A program made the position numbers and the translations under genes. Below the pieces are notes generated by a model. The model was not told where the DNA came from and ran no database searches. It was given only the letters and a program-made list of their open reading frames with translations. A DNA stretch of 64,000 nucleotides, taken from the NCBI RefSeq assembly GCF_007197885.1, contig NZ_VKKG01000002.1:248001-312000 (forward strand), written 5' to 3'. The number at the start of each line of letters is the position of its first letter. Positions within the stretch are counted from its first letter, which is position 1. Below are positions 16,315 to 19,565 of this stretch, in pieces. Origin of the DNA: Tessaracoccus rhinocerotis (GTDB taxonomy: Bacteria; Actinomycetota; Actinomycetes; Propionibacteriales; Propionibacteriaceae).

Positions 16315-17388
16315 GTGGCACTCACCATTGGAATCGTCGGTCTACCCAACGCCGGCAAGTCGACCCTGTTCAACGCACTGACCCGCAACGAGGTGCTCGC
16401 CGCGAACTATCCGTTCGCGACGATCGAGCCCAACGTGGGCGTCGTCGGTGTCCCCGACGACCGGCTCCCGCAACTGGCGAAGATCTTCAACTCCGAGCGG
16501 ATCCTGCCCGCGACGGTCAGCTTCGTCGACATCGCCGGCATCGTGAAGGGCGCCTCCCAGGGGGAGGGCATGGGCAACGCGTTCCTCGCCAACATCCGCG
16601 AGGCCGACGCCATCTGCCAGGTCACCCGCGTGTTCGAGGACGAGGACGTCATCCACGTCGACGGCAAGGTTGACCCCGCAGACGACATCGACACCATCAC
16701 CACCGAACTGATCATGGCCGACCTCGCCACCGTCGAGAAGGCACTGCCGCGCGTCGAGAAGGAGGCGCGCATCAAGAAGGAGTCGCAGCCGAAGCTCGCC
16801 GCCTACCAGGCCGCGAAGGACGCGCTCGAGTCGGGCAAGGGCGTACGCGCCGCTGGCCTGGACCTGGAGGAGCTGCGCGACCTGTTCCTGCTGACCGCCA
16901 AGCCCTACATCTACGTCTTCAACTGCGACCAGGACGAGCTGGGTGACGAGGACCTGAAGGCCCGGATGCGGGAGGTGGTCGCCCCCAACGAGGCGATCTT
17001 CCTCGACGCGAAGTTCGAGTCCGAACTCGTGGAGATGGACGAGGACGAGGCGCGCGACTTCCTCGTGGAGATGGGCGTGGAGGAGCCGGGCCTCGACGTG
17101 CTGGCCCGCGTCGGCTACGACACTCTCGGACTGCAGAGCTACCTGACTGCCGGCCCCAAGGAGTCCCGCGGCTGGACCATCCCCAAGGGTGCGACGGCGC
17201 CCGAGGCGGCTGGTGTCATCCACACCGACTTCCAGAAGGGGTTCATCAAGGCTGAGGTCGTCAGCTTCGAAGACCTCGTCAACACCGGATCCATGGCGGC
17301 CGCCAAGGCTGCGGGGAAGGTGCGCCTCGAGGGCAAGGACTACGTCATGCAGGACGGCGACGTCGTCGAATTTCGTTTTGCGCTTTAA
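16315..17388 (+). CDS. ychF: Redox-regulated ATPase YchF (OLA1 family) with altered C-terminus
   Basis: A 357-residue Obg-family nucleotidase with the G1 motif [14 protein letters not shown], switch [19 protein letters not shown], an internal helical coiled-coil insert and a C-terminal TGS domain ending [16 protein letters not shown]. Normal length for the family. The final residues are oddly AL-stop rather than the near-universal NV-stop, and the last codons (GAA TTT CGT TTT GCG CTT TAA) are AT-rich compared with the gene. Two copies of a conventional ychF end lie downstream at 18637-18669 and 19542-19565. The simplest reading is that integrating DNA replaced the last codons while preserving the frame. 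Confidence 0.95.
17362..17388 (+). repeat. Hybrid attachment site at the ychF 3' end (att copy 1)
   Basis: The last nine codons of ychF ([12 protein letters not shown]). Aligned with the two downstream relics it keeps the reading VVEFRF but with synonymous AT-rich codons and a different ending. It is interpreted as the junction between chromosome and islet; the shared core is around GA(A/G)TTTCG(T/C)TT. Confidence 0.6.
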
Positions 17389-17416
17389 CCTCTGGCGCTG
17401 GGGTTGTTGAGGAGCG

Positions 17417-17803
17417 TCACTCGTTCTCGATCAGTGTGATCGTGTAGTTCTCTGGCGATGGTAGTTCGACATGGTCATCGCCGAAGGGCATGTAGTTGAC
17501 GGAGTGCAGGCGTTCATCGACGACCCAGAGCTCGAGTAGTCCGAGCGTTGTTTCTCCATCGGATACTTCGGCGAAGCTGAAGGGGCCACCGTCATGCATG
17601 ATGCCTTGAGCATTGGCAGCGGGTGTGACGGAGATGAGGAAGCAAGCGCAGTCGTCGTGCTCGTAGCCACCCCAGGTGGCTTCTGTGAGCTGGGACCGTG
17701 CGATTGAAGATGCGGTGCCTGTGCCGCTGCAGAGAATGGCCAGCAGTCTGTTTTCCAGGGGAGTGAAGCTCCCGCCGGCGACTCGAGTGTACTTCGGGGT
17801 CAT
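17417..17803 (-). CDS. Small acidic protein, DUF6984-like / immunity-type
   Basis: A 128-residue soluble protein. FTPLENRLLAILCSG near the N-terminus, a C-x-C-x-x-x-I-x-V segment (DCACFLISV) in the middle, and a C-terminal strand-rich part (GLLELWVVDERLHSVNYM, then DHVELPSPENYTI) resemble the pattern of small DUF6984-like proteins often found beside toxins. That assignment is a resemblance, not a firm match. ATG at 17803 has GGAG 4 bases upstream; a TTG further upstream would overlap the regulator gene. It lies downstream of the regulator on the same strand, 37 bases after its stop, inside the islet. Confidence 0.55.
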   Translation of the reverse strand: MTPKYTRVAGGSFTPLENRLLAILCSGTGTASSIARSQLTEATWGGYEHDDCACFLISVTPAANAQGIMHDGGPFSFAEVSDGETTLGLLELWVVDERLHSVNYMPFGDDHVELPSPENYTITLIENE

Positions 17804-17840
17804 GGTGCTCCGGTCTTCGAAGGTTGCGCGGCCAGTCCGT

Positions 17841-18128
17841 TTAGTTGCCGGCAATGCGGTTGAGGGTCGCCACGAGGTTCAGGAACGTGCGTCTGCCGTC
17901 TGGCGTCAGCTGAACCAGCGTTGTCCCGTACCGGTTCTTACGCTCCTTGGAGATCTCCACCAGGCCGCGATCCTCCAGGTCTCGGAGGATCTTGGAAAGG
18001 TCGGGCATCGACAAGCCCGTTGTATCTTGCAGAGCAGGGAAGTCCGCTTGTTCGACCTGACTCAGGTACGACAGCGTGACGAATCGCTTGGGTGCGACCA
18101 GGTGCGCATCGATCTCTGCATATGACAT
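17841..18128 (-). CDS. Winged-helix transcriptional regulator (HTH_27 / MarR-like)
   Basis: A 95-residue single-domain winged-helix protein: the recognition region is TTGLSMPDLSKILRDLEDRGLVEISKERKNRY, and the wing and C-terminal helix follow (YGTTLVQLTPDGRRTFLNLVATLNRIAG). Such small regulators usually dimerise and repress their own operon. The ATG is one base after the stop of the membrane-protein gene, so the pair is one transcript; the palindrome in the promoter of that transcript (18574-18585) is its likely operator. Codon use is less GC-rich than the surrounding genome. Confidence 0.85.
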   Translation of the reverse strand: MSYAEIDAHLVAPKRFVTLSYLSQVEQADFPALQDTTGLSMPDLSKILRDLEDRGLVEISKERKNRYGTTLVQLTPDGRRTFLNLVATLNRIAGN

Positions 18129-18129
18129 T

Positions 18130-18561
18130 TCAGCGGCGGATCAGAAGCACGACATAGAACACCAGCCATGCCGCAGGGGCCAAGCCCGCGAAGATGAACG
18201 CTTCAGGGAACGGAATCGTCTCGCCATGCAAGAGGCCCCGCCAGACGGGGATCAGGAGCCAGACGGCGAATGCTGCGGAGATGATGGTCCCCTTTAGCCT
18301 GGGCTCGTTCGGCTGGCTCAGTCGCTTGGAGATCCAGACGTTTGACGTGACGATTGCGCCTAAGGTGAGTGGGATGGCCCACCAGGGAAATCCGCTCAGC
18401 GCGAGAAGCCCGGACGCGAATGACAGCGCGATCGTGGCAATCGCGCTCAGATGGTCACCGGCGCTGAAAACTCGCCGAGGTCTCGGCGGCATTGAGTCAA
18501 GCAGGCGCTGTGCTTCGATGGCAGTGACGTTCTGGTGCTCGCTCGGTTCGGCGTCCTTCAT
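18130..18561 (-). CDS. Small membrane protein paired with a winged-helix regulator
   Basis: A 143-residue protein with a soluble N-terminus (about residues 1-40, containing TAIEAQRLLDSMPPRPRRVF) and four hydrophobic segments (IATIALSFASGLLALSGF; WAIPLTLGAIVTSNVWI; IISAAFAVWLLIPVW; AFIFAGLAPAAWLVFYVVLL). No enzymatic motif is visible. The layout 'short membrane protein followed immediately by a one-domain HTH' is a common mini-operon of unknown role in Gram-positives. A TATCTT element 6 bases from the ATG implies a leaderless message. The much longer upstream frame is rejected. Confidence 0.75.
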   Translation of the reverse strand: MKDAEPSEHQNVTAIEAQRLLDSMPPRPRRVFSAGDHLSAIATIALSFASGLLALSGFPWWAIPLTLGAIVTSNVWISKRLSQPNEPRLKGTIISAAFAVWLLIPVWRGLLHGETIPFPEAFIFAGLAPAAWLVFYVVLLIRR

Positions 18562-18567
18562 GGTGCC

Positions 18568-18596: not shown

Positions 18597-18636
18597 GTAG
18601 TGCTTTGGGCTGTCGGCCCCAGAGGTTGGTATGTGT

Positions 18637-18669
18637 GGCGACGTGGTGGAGTTTCGCTTCAACGTCTGA
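18637..18669 (+). repeat. Displaced ychF 3'-end relic (att copy 2)
   Basis: Reads [14 protein letters not shown] in one frame (11 codons including the TGA), the conventional ychF C-terminus, but has no start or gene body upstream. It is a duplicated attachment site left by an insertion. Confidence 0.65.
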
Positions 18670-18687
18670 GCACCGTTCGGAGTGCGG

Positions 18688-18723
18688 CTGAGCAAGACGC
18701 GGGATCTGAGCAAGACGCGGGAT
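18688..18723 (+). repeat. 18-bp perfect tandem duplication
   Basis: CTGAGCAAGACGCGGGAT occurs twice head to tail (18688-18705, 18706-18723), just inside the second islet unit and 18 bases after att copy 2. It may be a recombinase arm-type site, or a replication-slippage duplication. Confidence 0.6.
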
Positions 18724-18790
18724 CATCGAGCCCGCGACCGCTATGACTCGCAGTGACTTGAAGACGTACACGTGTGTCAGTGTTGTCCAC

Positions 18791-19501
18791 ATGACCGACT
18801 TTGTTGGACGCGCGCGAGCCTTCGTCAAAGCGCGCTATCCGCAGGCGATCGCAGCCTTTCTTGGCGGTAGTGCCGCATCTGGGGAAGCGACCGACTCCTC
18901 CGACTTGGACATCCTGATTGTCCTGCCCGATAGGTGGACATCCGTCGGATTCGTCGAGACGACGGAGTTCGACGGCCAGATTGTCGAGGCCTTCGTGTAC
19001 GGACGCGAAGCGCTTCAATCTTGGATGGCGAAGGGGCGAAGTGACGCACGACCGGTTCTGGACCGCTTGGTTGCAGGAGGCGTGTCTTTGGTGACGAGTG
19101 AGATTTCCACGTCCATCGCAGCGATTTCGCGCGAAGCCCTGCGCGGCGGTCCCTCGCCCATCGCTCAGGAAGAGCTGAATCGTCGTCGCTACAGTCTGTC
19201 GGCTGTCATTGACGATGTCACCGATGCGATGGATCCGGGCATCCGGTGCGTTGCGATGGTAACGGCCTGGAAGGAAGCAGCTGAGCTGGCGCTACTGTCG
19301 AATGCGCACTGGCTCGGAACCGGGAAATGGTTGGTGCGGGAGTTACGTGCCAATGGGGACCCCTTTGGGCTCGCAGCCTTGGCCGTCGCTGGGTGGTCTG
19401 ACGAGAAGGCTCTCGTAGACGCGTGCGATGCCGTCCTCGAGTCGACCGGCGGCTATTTGCAGATCGGGTTCACTCGGGGCACAAAGCCGAAAGACTTGTG
19501 A
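18791..19501 (+). CDS. Nucleotidyltransferase (aminoglycoside-adenylyltransferase-like)
   Basis: A 236-residue protein with the polymerase-beta nucleotidyltransferase signature GGSAASG (about residues 26-32) followed by DSSDLDILIVLP, which provides the two metal-binding aspartates, and a third acidic strand (DGQIVEAFVYG). The rest is helical, as in kanamycin/streptomycin nucleotidyltransferases. Whether it modifies an antibiotic, a nucleotide or a toxin partner is not shown. ATG at 18791 is used; a GTG-type upstream extension adds no domain. No clear Shine-Dalgarno. Lower GC than the backbone; carried by the islet's second unit. Confidence 0.75.
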   Translation: MTDFVGRARAFVKARYPQAIAAFLGGSAASGEATDSSDLDILIVLPDRWTSVGFVETTEFDGQIVEAFVYGREALQSWMAKGRSDARPVLDRLVAGGVSLVTSEISTSIAAISREALRGGPSPIAQEELNRRRYSLSAVIDDVTDAMDPGIRCVAMVTAWKEAAELALLSNAHWLGTGKWLVRELRANGDPFGLAALAVAGWSDEKALVDACDAVLESTGGYLQIGFTRGTKPKDL

Positions 19502-19541
19502 GGCTCTCGGCTCATCAGATGCCTATCCGTGACGCAACCCG

Positions 19542-19565
19542 GTGGAGTTCCGCTTCAACGTGTAG
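19542..19565 (+). repeat. Displaced ychF 3'-end relic (att copy 3, probable original ychF end)
   Basis: Codes VEFRFNV-stop in GC-rich codons like the rest of ychF. Being distal to the islet and next to backbone sequence, it is the best candidate for the native end of ychF before insertion. It matches copy 2 over 21 bases (GGTGGAGTT...CAACGT) with one mismatch. Confidence 0.65.

Follow-up and report, generated by a model that had tools for sequence, protein, structure and literature searches.

The 3' end of ychF as the probable attachment site for an actinobacterial clade of large serine recombinases, with a two-cassette array in Tessaracoccus rhinocerotis

Why does a housekeeping gene end in an unusual tail, with its usual ending found twice in the DNA behind it? 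This question is raised by ychF in a 64,000-nucleotide stretch of the Tessaracoccus rhinocerotis genome (the window; genome G000). The last codons of the gene, GTC GAA TTT CGT TTT GCG CTT TAA (17365-17388), read VEFRFAL*, and orphan copies of the usual end, FRFNV*, lie about 1.3 kb (GGCGACGTGGTGGAGTTTCGCTTCAACGTCTGA, 18637-18669) and about 2.2 kb (CGGTGGAGTTCCGCTTCAACGTGTAG, 19540-19565) 3' of ychF. Direct reading found no ychF body 5' of either copy, as the original prediction had stated, and the genes between the endings are indeed lower in GC (0.59–0.63 across 17001-19500 in 500-base steps, compared with 0.67–0.74 outside). Since GTGGTGGAGTTCCGCTT has only five matches in the whole genome at up to 2 mismatches, and the full-site score is high for the window pair alone (Table 1; the other three score below 0), the orphan ends are not chance occurrences. 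The prediction had named two observations that would refute it, an AL ending with relics in insert-free relatives and relics at unrelated positions, and both checks came out in its favour. Of 34 YchF ends from the genus (YchF identity 83–92%), 33 could be read, and FRFAL was seen in the window alone; the sites are not scattered over G000.

The islet had been described as one unit lacking a recombinase. It proved to be two cassettes, and no recombinase was found in either. Site 1 is a cassette-cassette junction, with the right end of cassette 1 fused to the left end of cassette 2; by reading, its arm CCAGAGGTT is the reverse complement of the cassette 1 left arm AACCTCTGG (17387-17395), which the ychF stop TAA (17386-17388) overlaps. 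The FRFNV* end at site 2 is probably the host's own displaced ychF end, and the Imm5-like gene that follows is probably chromosomal. The 252-aa protein of cassette 2 also has a weak MntA-antitoxin match, below the cut-off of that model. No structural, conjugation or replication gene was matched among the window's cassette ORFs scanned, which gave a weak HTH match to the replication-initiation family phrog_678 (E 0.007), and an Rfam scan of 17300-19700 returned no match. Homologues of the islet genes were absent from the other same-genus stretches downstream of ychF, where the flanking Imm5-like gene had a weak match in G005. The left-end class of the window recurs in L073 (G021), at site 7473 of L044, at site 2713 of L158 and at the second site of L219.

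Table 1. Features of the ychF locus in the window (positions are those of the whole stretch).
Feature	Positions	Strand	Remarks
ychF (YchF ATPase), host and attachment gene	16315..17388	+	direct reading
Left junction (attL-like)	17350..17395	+	ychF-derived left half to about GT 17365-17366, then cassette-derived CGAATTTCGTTTTGCGCTTTAACCTCTGG
Cassette 1, about 1281 bp, GC about 0.6	17365..18645	+	between two junctions; three minus-strand ORFs, no recombinase
Cassette 1 ORF, 145 aa (start may be further in)	17417..17854	-	no family match
Cassette 1 winged-helix regulator, 95 aa	17841..18128	-	PF13601 HTH_34, 58.9 bits
Cassette 1 ORF, 143 aa	18130..18561	-	hydrophobic stretches by eye; no family match
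Site 1, CCAGAGGTTGGTATGTGTGGCGACGTG / GTGGAGTTTCGCTTCAACGTCTGA	18619..18669	+	matrix score 34.4; includes orphan FRFNV* end
Cassette 2, about 896 bp, GC about 0.6	18646..19541	+	bounded by sites 1 and 2
Cassette 2 nucleotidyltransferase-fold protein, 252 aa	18743..19501	+	PF01909, 29.4 bits
Site 2, CAGATGCCTATCCGTGACGCAACCCG / GTGGAGTTCCGCTTCAACGTGTAG	19516..19565	+	matrix score 35.3; cassette 2 right end and probable old ychF end
Imm5-like high-GC gene past the last site	19577..20158	+	PF21805 (scanned from 19529); GC 0.74

The same site recurs behind ychF in Propionibacteriaceae, Demequina, Nocardia farcinica and a Nocardioides, often in tandem and in the orientation of ychF. The predicted attP, GA(A/G)TTTCG(T/C)TT, gave way to a longer site, whose centre is the GT of the GTN codon that precedes GAG; the conserved site also takes in 26 nt upstream of the orphan end, and this left half is not ychF sequence. 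In 34 same-genus downstream stretches, the ychF-end coding pattern (up to 2 mismatches allowed) occurred 39 times on the strand of ychF and never on the opposite strand, the 39 including a few chance matches, one second ychF copy (L074) and one frameshifted ychF (L075). At further loci (ychF found in 91 of 100) the counts were 37 and 0, with some Demequina sites counted twice and 20 of the 100 loci fetched because of end-pattern matches. A site matrix gave 69 matches in the orientation of ychF versus 0 opposite at scores of at least 16 (125 downstream stretches), and 89 versus 7 at scores of at least 13, the seven scoring 13.0–15.7. Across 2.42 Mb, a 35-nt matrix at a threshold of at least 14 found 153 and 95 matches on the two strands, training sites and ychF ends included, as against 6 and 2 in reversed and complemented sequence. 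Two weak site-like pairs in L170 (13.2–13.4) and one match in L164 are oriented against the other sites of those loci. A strict site pattern, too strict to estimate prevalence, was found phylum-wide in 1 of 396, and a 61-nt site query gave one match each in plasmid and phage collections, Nocardia farcinica and a scaffold that is filed as phage.

The units between sites are small (88 of 97 delimited cassettes below 4.1 kb, median 1313 bp) and are held in common by different genomes with boundaries at the sites. In 80 of 409 inter-locus alignments downstream of ychF the start coincides with a site in both loci, and in 12 the end does so; random site positions gave means of 0.06 and 0.095, with a maximum of 2 over 200 trials. 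The 80 alignments derive from 23 loci, and one HigBA cassette accounts for many of them. G021 (Propionibacteriaceae) and Nocardia farcinica share 1323 bp at 99.3% identity with breakpoints at sites. Demequina mangrovi and D. gelatinilytica share 1895 bp at 96.4%, as the second cassette in one genome and the first in the other. Homologous recombination of arrays could account for part of this sharing. The longest ORF per cassette, picked by length and GC pattern rather than from annotation, runs forward in 49 cases and in reverse in 43.

Which enzyme would act at such a site is suggested by relatives. At five loci (G022, G129, G653, G667 and G847), an element of 8.5–12.6 kb occupies the same ychF spot in the order altered YchF tail, element, large serine recombinase (LSR), site, displaced FRFNV*. 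These loci match, with a recombinase attached, the proposal that an element supplies a replacement end and displaces the old one, and the shared layout bears out site-specific integration into the ychF 3' end. An altered-tail ychF lies directly upstream of an LSR in G019, G013 and L260. Ten LSRs in relatives begin 30–45 nt from a site, and all five ychF- or site-associated relative LSRs tested have the domains PF00239 (Resolvase) and PF07508 (Recombinase). On a viral contig found by the site alone, the LSR starts 34 nt from it; this contig was the one match over three pattern scans of viral contigs, and a protein scan returned it and one more. When LSR relatives were found by protein alone, 5 of 30 loci had a ychF-type site (score at least 20) within 60 nt of the start, among them the four best-matching relatives. 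No such site was found beside two LSRs 40–41% identical to the query (L256, L257). Together with the Cutibacterium namnetense enzyme, the ten site-bearing LSRs fall into a single clade (100/98) in a set of 47. Five of the ten were found via the site or ychF locus and are not independent evidence.

We put at roughly 80% the reading in which the islet consists of two cassettes arrayed at the ychF 3' end, and this end is attB for a clade of actinobacterial LSRs. These data suggest that the enzyme behind such ychF insertions is a large serine integrase recognizing this spot in various Actinobacteria. At the level of sequence, the sites, the replaced tails, the cassette-precise sharing and the association of LSR, site and ychF are evident; from them we infer recombination itself and any present-day activity. 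In circular form, a cassette would have an attP-like site, with inner arms of the CGGAAC...GTTCCG type flanking a central GT and, for some cassettes, outer arms of the type CAGAGGTT...AACCTCTG. Crossover with ychF would occur at the GT forming the first two bases of the second Val codon in VVEFRF, bringing in the cassette left end as a YchF tail with its own stop and leaving the old end beyond the cassette. The first to enter in the window was probably cassette 2, which displaced the host end to 19542-19565; cassette 1 would have followed, giving FRFAL* to ychF and shifting the cassette 2 left end to 18646.

The LSR probably came in trans from a larger element resembling those of the relatives, and is now absent. 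The search elsewhere for a tyrosine or serine recombinase, advised by the original prediction, pointed to the serine type through relatives; in G000 itself, neither a PF00239 match nor a relative of the ychF-clade LSR (E≤1e-40) was found. With no detectable serine recombinase in G000, the islet would have been moved in trans, which fits the absence of a PF00239 match, or be a relic. Given this absence and the lack of cargo homologues in the same-genus stretches, we can only infer its mobility.

Altered YchF ends are more frequent at loci with a downstream site (14 of 36) than at those without (10 of 81; p=0.0023). Left ends of attP type occur at 9 of 36 sites adjoining ychF versus 4 of 71 away from it, and many internal left ends look attB-like. 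The outer arm stands at +20/+22 in attP-type left ends, and a similar motif, AACGTCT, which is also coding sequence there, stands at +15 in 34 of 81 site-free (native) ychF ends. This offset would agree with the position of the ZD motif in serine integrase sites, which lies about 5 bp further inward in attB than in attP (PMC3783163). A symmetric, ungapped comparison of arm pairs from the same cassette with swapped pairs, in which the centre formula merged neighbouring centres, gave no signal. The same source states that serine integrases do not recombine pairs other than attP x attB without a further factor (PMC3783163); on that account, array growth would need left ends that rebuild attB. More tentatively, at somewhat less than even odds for the reading as a whole, the ychF 3' end may be a serine-recombinase-driven gene-capture platform, an integron-like array in several actinobacterial orders. 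Small recombinase-less cassettes with toxin-antitoxin, Fic and candidate anti-phage genes would be captured, reordered and passed between orders by LSRs in trans, and every cassette end would have been moulded to serve also as the C-terminal tail of a host protein that is conserved. Left ends mimicking the native attB would keep the platform open, and attP-type left ends would close it.

Several other recombinase candidates were considered and set aside. A motif search for tyrosine integrases in the arrays of the 34 same-genus stretches gave only two unrelated proteins, and tblastn of 43 recombinase-locus reading frames gave two transposases (L071, L074). Recombinases detected near ychF by tblastn in L079, L083, L126, L127, L138 and L171 never lie between detected sites; in the four of these six loci inspected, the core differs where a repeat was found.

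The units might instead be decayed or deletion remnants of full LSR elements inserted successively at ychF rather than self-moving cassettes. We consider this unlikely, though it draws on remnants of about 50 aa from LSR N-termini beside the site in L157 and L165 (loci sharing DNA), the absence of a serine recombinase from G000, the likeness of the YchF tails of C. namnetense and C. porci to LSR-element tails, and a clade LSR 6.5 kb downstream in C. namnetense. Against it, small LSR-less units with both ends intact are common, site to site, to distant genomes, and Demequina units sit at different array positions. That ordinary rearrangement or homologous recombination simply duplicated part of the ychF 3' end, with no site-specific recombinase, is very improbable: second ychF copies do lie downstream of ychF in L074 (G038) and L162 (G118), but the orphan ends carry the conserved 26-nt non-ychF left half, cassette boundaries fall at the site and the LSR keeps a fixed spacing from it.

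Movement by a tyrosine recombinase, whether an integrase of the integron type or the XerC/XerD of the host, is improbable. Integrons and pdif modules, the latter a parallel for XerC/XerD-moved units, offer the model, and small cassettes at one locus, inner inverted repeats spaced 8 bp apart at many sites, and better single-stranded folding than shuffles in 2 of 4 site sequences (z -2.9 and -3.1; one being the joined ends of cassette 1) would suit it. However, PF00589 has only two matches each in the array-bearing Demequina mangrovi, G023 and G025; TIGR02249 exceeds its cut-off in 3 of 198 family genomes (G007, G032, G038), far from ychF or on another contig; cassette ORFs have no preferred orientation; and the site tracks the LSR clade. 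Phage- or ICE-type tyrosine integrases adjoin or lie near the ychF 3' end in Myceligenerans, Modestobacter, Amycolatopsis and Nocardioides terrae, which marks ychF as a shared integration spot, but that they made the islet is highly improbable. Downstream of three of them, a putative repeat (4 mismatches allowed) consists of GTTCCGCTTCAAC and the native end, to the left of which the sequence is element-specific, and YchF retains FRFNV there. The cassettes have GTGGAGTT in common and diverge to its right, which indicates another crossover point.

The LSR reading of the locus would name a conserved gene end as the attachment site of a serine-integrase clade and explain odd YchF C-termini (FRFAL, FRTGLTSGGKK, FRHS, FRFSPTSK) as element-supplied tails. 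Integrons are rarely reported in Actinobacteria, which would gain a counterpart cassette system with defence-type cargo. The matched attP/attB/LSR sets are candidate integration tools, and the arrays raise the question of how growth proceeds with a recombinase class thought to be one-way.

The original prediction knew of no description of ychF as an attachment site, and for the 3' end this holds in the literature searched, part of which was available in excerpt. The pneumococcal satellite prophage PPH005 / PhiBM6001.4 has its attB beside ychF, but upstream, between the DUF951 gene and ychF, with an unrelated core sequence and, in the portions of the sources available, no mention of a YchF tail change (PMC8637289, PMC10383233). 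The Microbacterium phages SuMoo, Caron and UtzChips encode serine integrases of the same branch (45–48% identical), sister to the ychF clade, but a ychF-type site is missing from the 1.5 kb next to the integrase in these three phages. The G022 element resembles serine-integrase phages in also encoding a Prim-Pol/D5 replication protein.

Integrons have a primary site beside a gene, the tyrosine integrase IntI, cassette genes that mostly point the same way, and attC sites recombined as folded single strands. The ychF arrays share with them the primary site beside a gene, small-cassette arrays with toxin-antitoxin and defence-like cargo, and occurrence of the same cassette at different positions across genomes. 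They differ in having a serine rather than a tyrosine recombinase, no IntI at the locus, no ORF orientation bias, no recombinase gene in most arrays and a proposed crossover at the site centre. The closest known kind of system is the staphylococcal cassette chromosome (SCC), inserted by CcrA/CcrB/CcrC at the 3' end of rlmH. Both systems have a large serine recombinase and a target in the final codons of a conserved housekeeping gene, which they leave readable; both also form tandem composite arrays and have recombinase-less units beside recombinase-bearing ones. Gene, recombinase and cassette size differ: the target is ychF rather than rlmH, the G022 LSR scores well under the cut-offs of the Ccr models (CcrB gives the best match at 54.8 bits, where 900 is required), and the ychF system combines an LSR 30–45 nt from the site and a median cassette of 1313 bp with a changed YchF tail sequence.

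The altered ychF end in the window and the two orphan copies of the usual end (FRFNV*) lying downstream, on which the original prediction of an integrated islet was built, are both confirmed. Each orphan copy is preceded by a 26-nt stretch that is conserved and not derived from ychF; this stretch and the orphan end together form the site discussed here. The genes between the copies were correctly described as lower in GC (0.59–0.63 within the islet versus 0.67–0.74 outside), and the islet does lack a recombinase gene, none being encoded in either cassette. Overall, we consider site-specific integration at the 3' end of ychF a likely explanation for the islet (probability roughly 0.82).

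Features of the ychF islet in the window
Feature	Position	Strand	Content	Basis
ychF	16315-17388	+	ends VEFRFAL*	direct reading
Cassette 1	17365-18645	+	three ORFs, all on - strand, one a winged-helix regulator	family search (regulator)
First copy of usual ychF end, with preceding 26-nt stretch	18620-18669			direct reading and site matrix
Cassette 2	18646-19541	+	nucleotidyltransferase-fold gene	family search
Second copy of usual ychF end, with preceding 26-nt stretch	19516-19565			direct reading and site matrix

Members of the genus differ in how their YchF ends. Among 34 same-genus loci, 19 encode FRFNV, one FRFNI and 13 other ends, including FRFAL, FRFAV, FRFSL, FRHS and FRTGLTSGSKK; one frameshifted end was left uncounted. 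Downstream of these genes, the native-end coding pattern occurs 39 times on the ychF strand versus 0 on the opposite strand, and the counts were 37 versus 0 in 100 further loci (ychF found in 91), 20 of which had been picked for end-pattern matches. A strict end pattern was matched exactly at least twice in 18 of 198 family genomes, one of them (G118) owing to a second ychF copy, and no genome among the 198 had the reversed pattern. A 35-nt matrix, for which the left halves of the sites served as training set, gave at a score of at least 14 153 matches on one strand and 95 on the other in 2.42 Mb, counts that take in ychF ends and the training sites themselves; when reversed and complemented sequence was scanned, the counts were 6 and 2. 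In 125 stretches downstream of ychF, 69 matches scoring at least 16 were on the ychF strand versus 0 on the other; at a score of at least 13, the counts downstream of ychF were 89 versus 7.

Altered YchF ends were found in 14 of 36 loci with a downstream site versus 10 of 81 without (p=0.0023), a comparison that includes two added public loci and drops 10 of the other 125, whose end misfitted the search pattern. If anything, this contrast is understated, because the ten loci with an altered end but no site include one with a large serine recombinase (LSR) behind ychF (L058), two with a site just below threshold (L072, L174), two near a contig end (L070, L108) and, in L128 and L129, one contig cut within the end and one native variant miscalled as altered.

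We delimited 97 cassettes of 150–9000 bp (median 1313 bp) using sites scoring at least 13, a threshold at which a few boundaries will be false. In an all-against-all alignment of loci with sites, 80 of 409 alignments downstream of ychF start at a site in both loci (these starts being drawn from 23 loci, many via a single HigBA toxin-antitoxin cassette) and 12 end at one. Random placement of the same number of sites gave means of 0.06 starts and 0.095 ends over 200 trials, with a maximum of 2. As judged from alignment, this shows that DNA shared between loci begins and ends at sites. The strongest single example is a cassette of 1.3 kb with 99.3% identity over 1323 bp between G021, a genome of the window's genus, and Nocardia farcinica NCTC11134. 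A 1.9-kb Demequina cassette takes first place in the D. gelatinilytica array and second place in that of D. mangrovi, at 96.4% identity. Cargo was surveyed with 87 ORFs hand-picked out of 148 non-redundant cassette ORFs; in the families listed (25 of 92 and 25 of 84), HTH, Fic, DUF4143/AAA_14, methyltransferases and hydrolases, along with a range of PADLOC candidate defence families, are among those with several members. The longest ORF is forward in 49 cassettes and reverse in 43, indicating no preferred orientation.

Searches of ychF loci found no tyrosine recombinase between sites; the genomes of Demequina mangrovi, G023 and G025 each gave just two PF00589 matches, presumably XerC and XerD. 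A site scan of viral contigs returned one contig, on which a 454-aa LSR starts 34 nt from the site, and this protein as query retrieved relatives in ychF loci. In G022, from the window's genus, an 8.5-kb element has the LSR at its right end, the start of the gene towards the site; G129 has the same arrangement at its element end, and in G019 and G013 the LSR is immediately behind ychF. Since the G022 element encodes a Prim-Pol/D5 replication protein, the autonomous LSR elements may be replicating satellites. Resolvase and Recombinase domains were present in all five LSRs scanned.

A protein-only search across the class (394 genomes) found 37 with an LSR relative at E<=1e-40. A ychF-type site scoring at least 20 lay within 60 nt of the LSR start in five of 30 loci, the four best matches included; 24 had no such site near the start, and a sixth match (15.7, L263) falls within the LSR gene and was taken as chance. 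When 47 LSRs were compared in a tree, the ten whose site is properly placed, five met via the site or a ychF locus and five independently, form one clade with the Cutibacterium namnetense LSR (support 100/98), neighboured by Microbacterium phage integrases without such a site. FRFNV* follows the site in four of these loci: G653, G667 and G847, where ychF is 10.6–12.6 kb away and has the tail FRFSPTSK in the first two and FRHGATTKPSK in G847, and G129, where ychF (tail FRFSPTSK) is 9.2 kb off, beyond the LSR. For two of the ten, L244 and G901, the available stretch ends too early to show ychF.

Element-type tails also end YchF in C. namnetense (L089, FRTGIPSGSKK) and C. porci (L112, FRTGLTSGGKK); C. 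namnetense retains its clade LSR 6.5 kb downstream, with an apparent decayed left end ahead of it. In another genus of the family, locus L290 (G039) encodes at 12882-11341 an LSR, outside the tree, that is 42.6% identical to that of L244; a strong site (40.2) lies some 12 kb away from it.

Serine integrases recognise half-sites made up of two parts, the outer of which (the ZD motif) is 5 bp closer to the centre in attB (PMC3783163). The sites have inner arms of CGGAAC/GTTCCG type around a GT centre, where symmetry is best to within half a base, and some cassettes have outer arms CAGAGGTT/AACCTCTG; the window's cassette 1 has the two of them, with complementarity over 9 bases. Of 81 site-free native ychF ends, 34 have AACGTCT at +15, in a stretch that is coding sequence too, and attP-type left ends carry AACCTCTGG at +20 or +22. 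A permutation test for matched arms of the same cassette gave no signal. Insertion would swap the YchF tail after the Val codon, the frame running into a short new tail and stop; in the window, the new TAA stop forms part of the outer arm. An attP-type left end would close the locus to more insertions, and an FRFNV-type left end would rebuild attB. As expected on such a scheme, attP-type left ends make up a larger share beside ychF (9 of 36) than elsewhere (4 of 71; p=0.009).

Within the integration model, the window cassettes could have moved independently in trans or decayed in place, and we lean towards movement in trans as the rather more probable history. The host belongs to the Propionibacteriaceae. 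The original prediction proposed looking for a recombinase elsewhere in the genome, and none of the serine type emerged: the genome gave zero PF00239 matches and no close LSR relative. Because of this, and because no homologue of an islet gene turned up in the other same-genus stretches downstream of ychF, the cassettes would have been inserted by a since-lost LSR or left from larger elements.

Other recombinases also occur around ychF. Tyrosine integrases lie immediately downstream of it or nearby in L126, L127, L138 and L079, a set from Myceligenerans, Amycolatopsis, Modestobacter and Nocardioides terrae. GTTCCGCTTCAAC and a native-type end are repeated 10.7–25 kb downstream in the three checked, those of Myceligenerans, Modestobacter and Nocardioides terrae. 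This suggests that the ychF 3' end has been used a second time, independently and at a different crossover point. The tyrosine recombinase about 9–10 kb downstream of the ychF end in L171 (G056), G051 and G052, from one genus of the family, is probably a host Xer gene. G008 and G013 contain three-gene tyrosine recombinase sets in many equal-scoring copies dispersed genome-wide, which we take to resemble RIT-type elements. Incomplete matches to the integron integrase model TIGR02249 (316–384 bits), off ychF or on another contig, appear by score to be remnants of class-1-type integrons in G007, G032 and G038; a match in G013 and another in G038, to a second copy there, fell below cut-off. Second ychF copies lie among sites about 8.7–9.8 kb downstream in L074 (G038), broken into three frames, and about 2 kb downstream of the first in L162 (G118), a layout that would fit the duplication or acquisition of a block made up of ychF and its array. 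An unverified human faecal scaffold deposited as "Bacteriophage sp." (MT836021.1), with ychF, a HigBA cassette and seemingly chromosomal genes, is probably an actinobacterial chromosome fragment.

The view of ychF as an undescribed attachment site holds within the openly licensed literature, a scope that most subscription papers fall outside: no use of its 3' end by a serine integrase was found there, and two pneumococcal studies describe integration upstream of ychF (PMC8637289, PMC10383233). Because the Ccr recombinase and IntI tests fail, the ychF system is a member of neither the staphylococcal cassette chromosomes nor the integrons, yet it works like the former and resembles the latter in cassette size and cargo.
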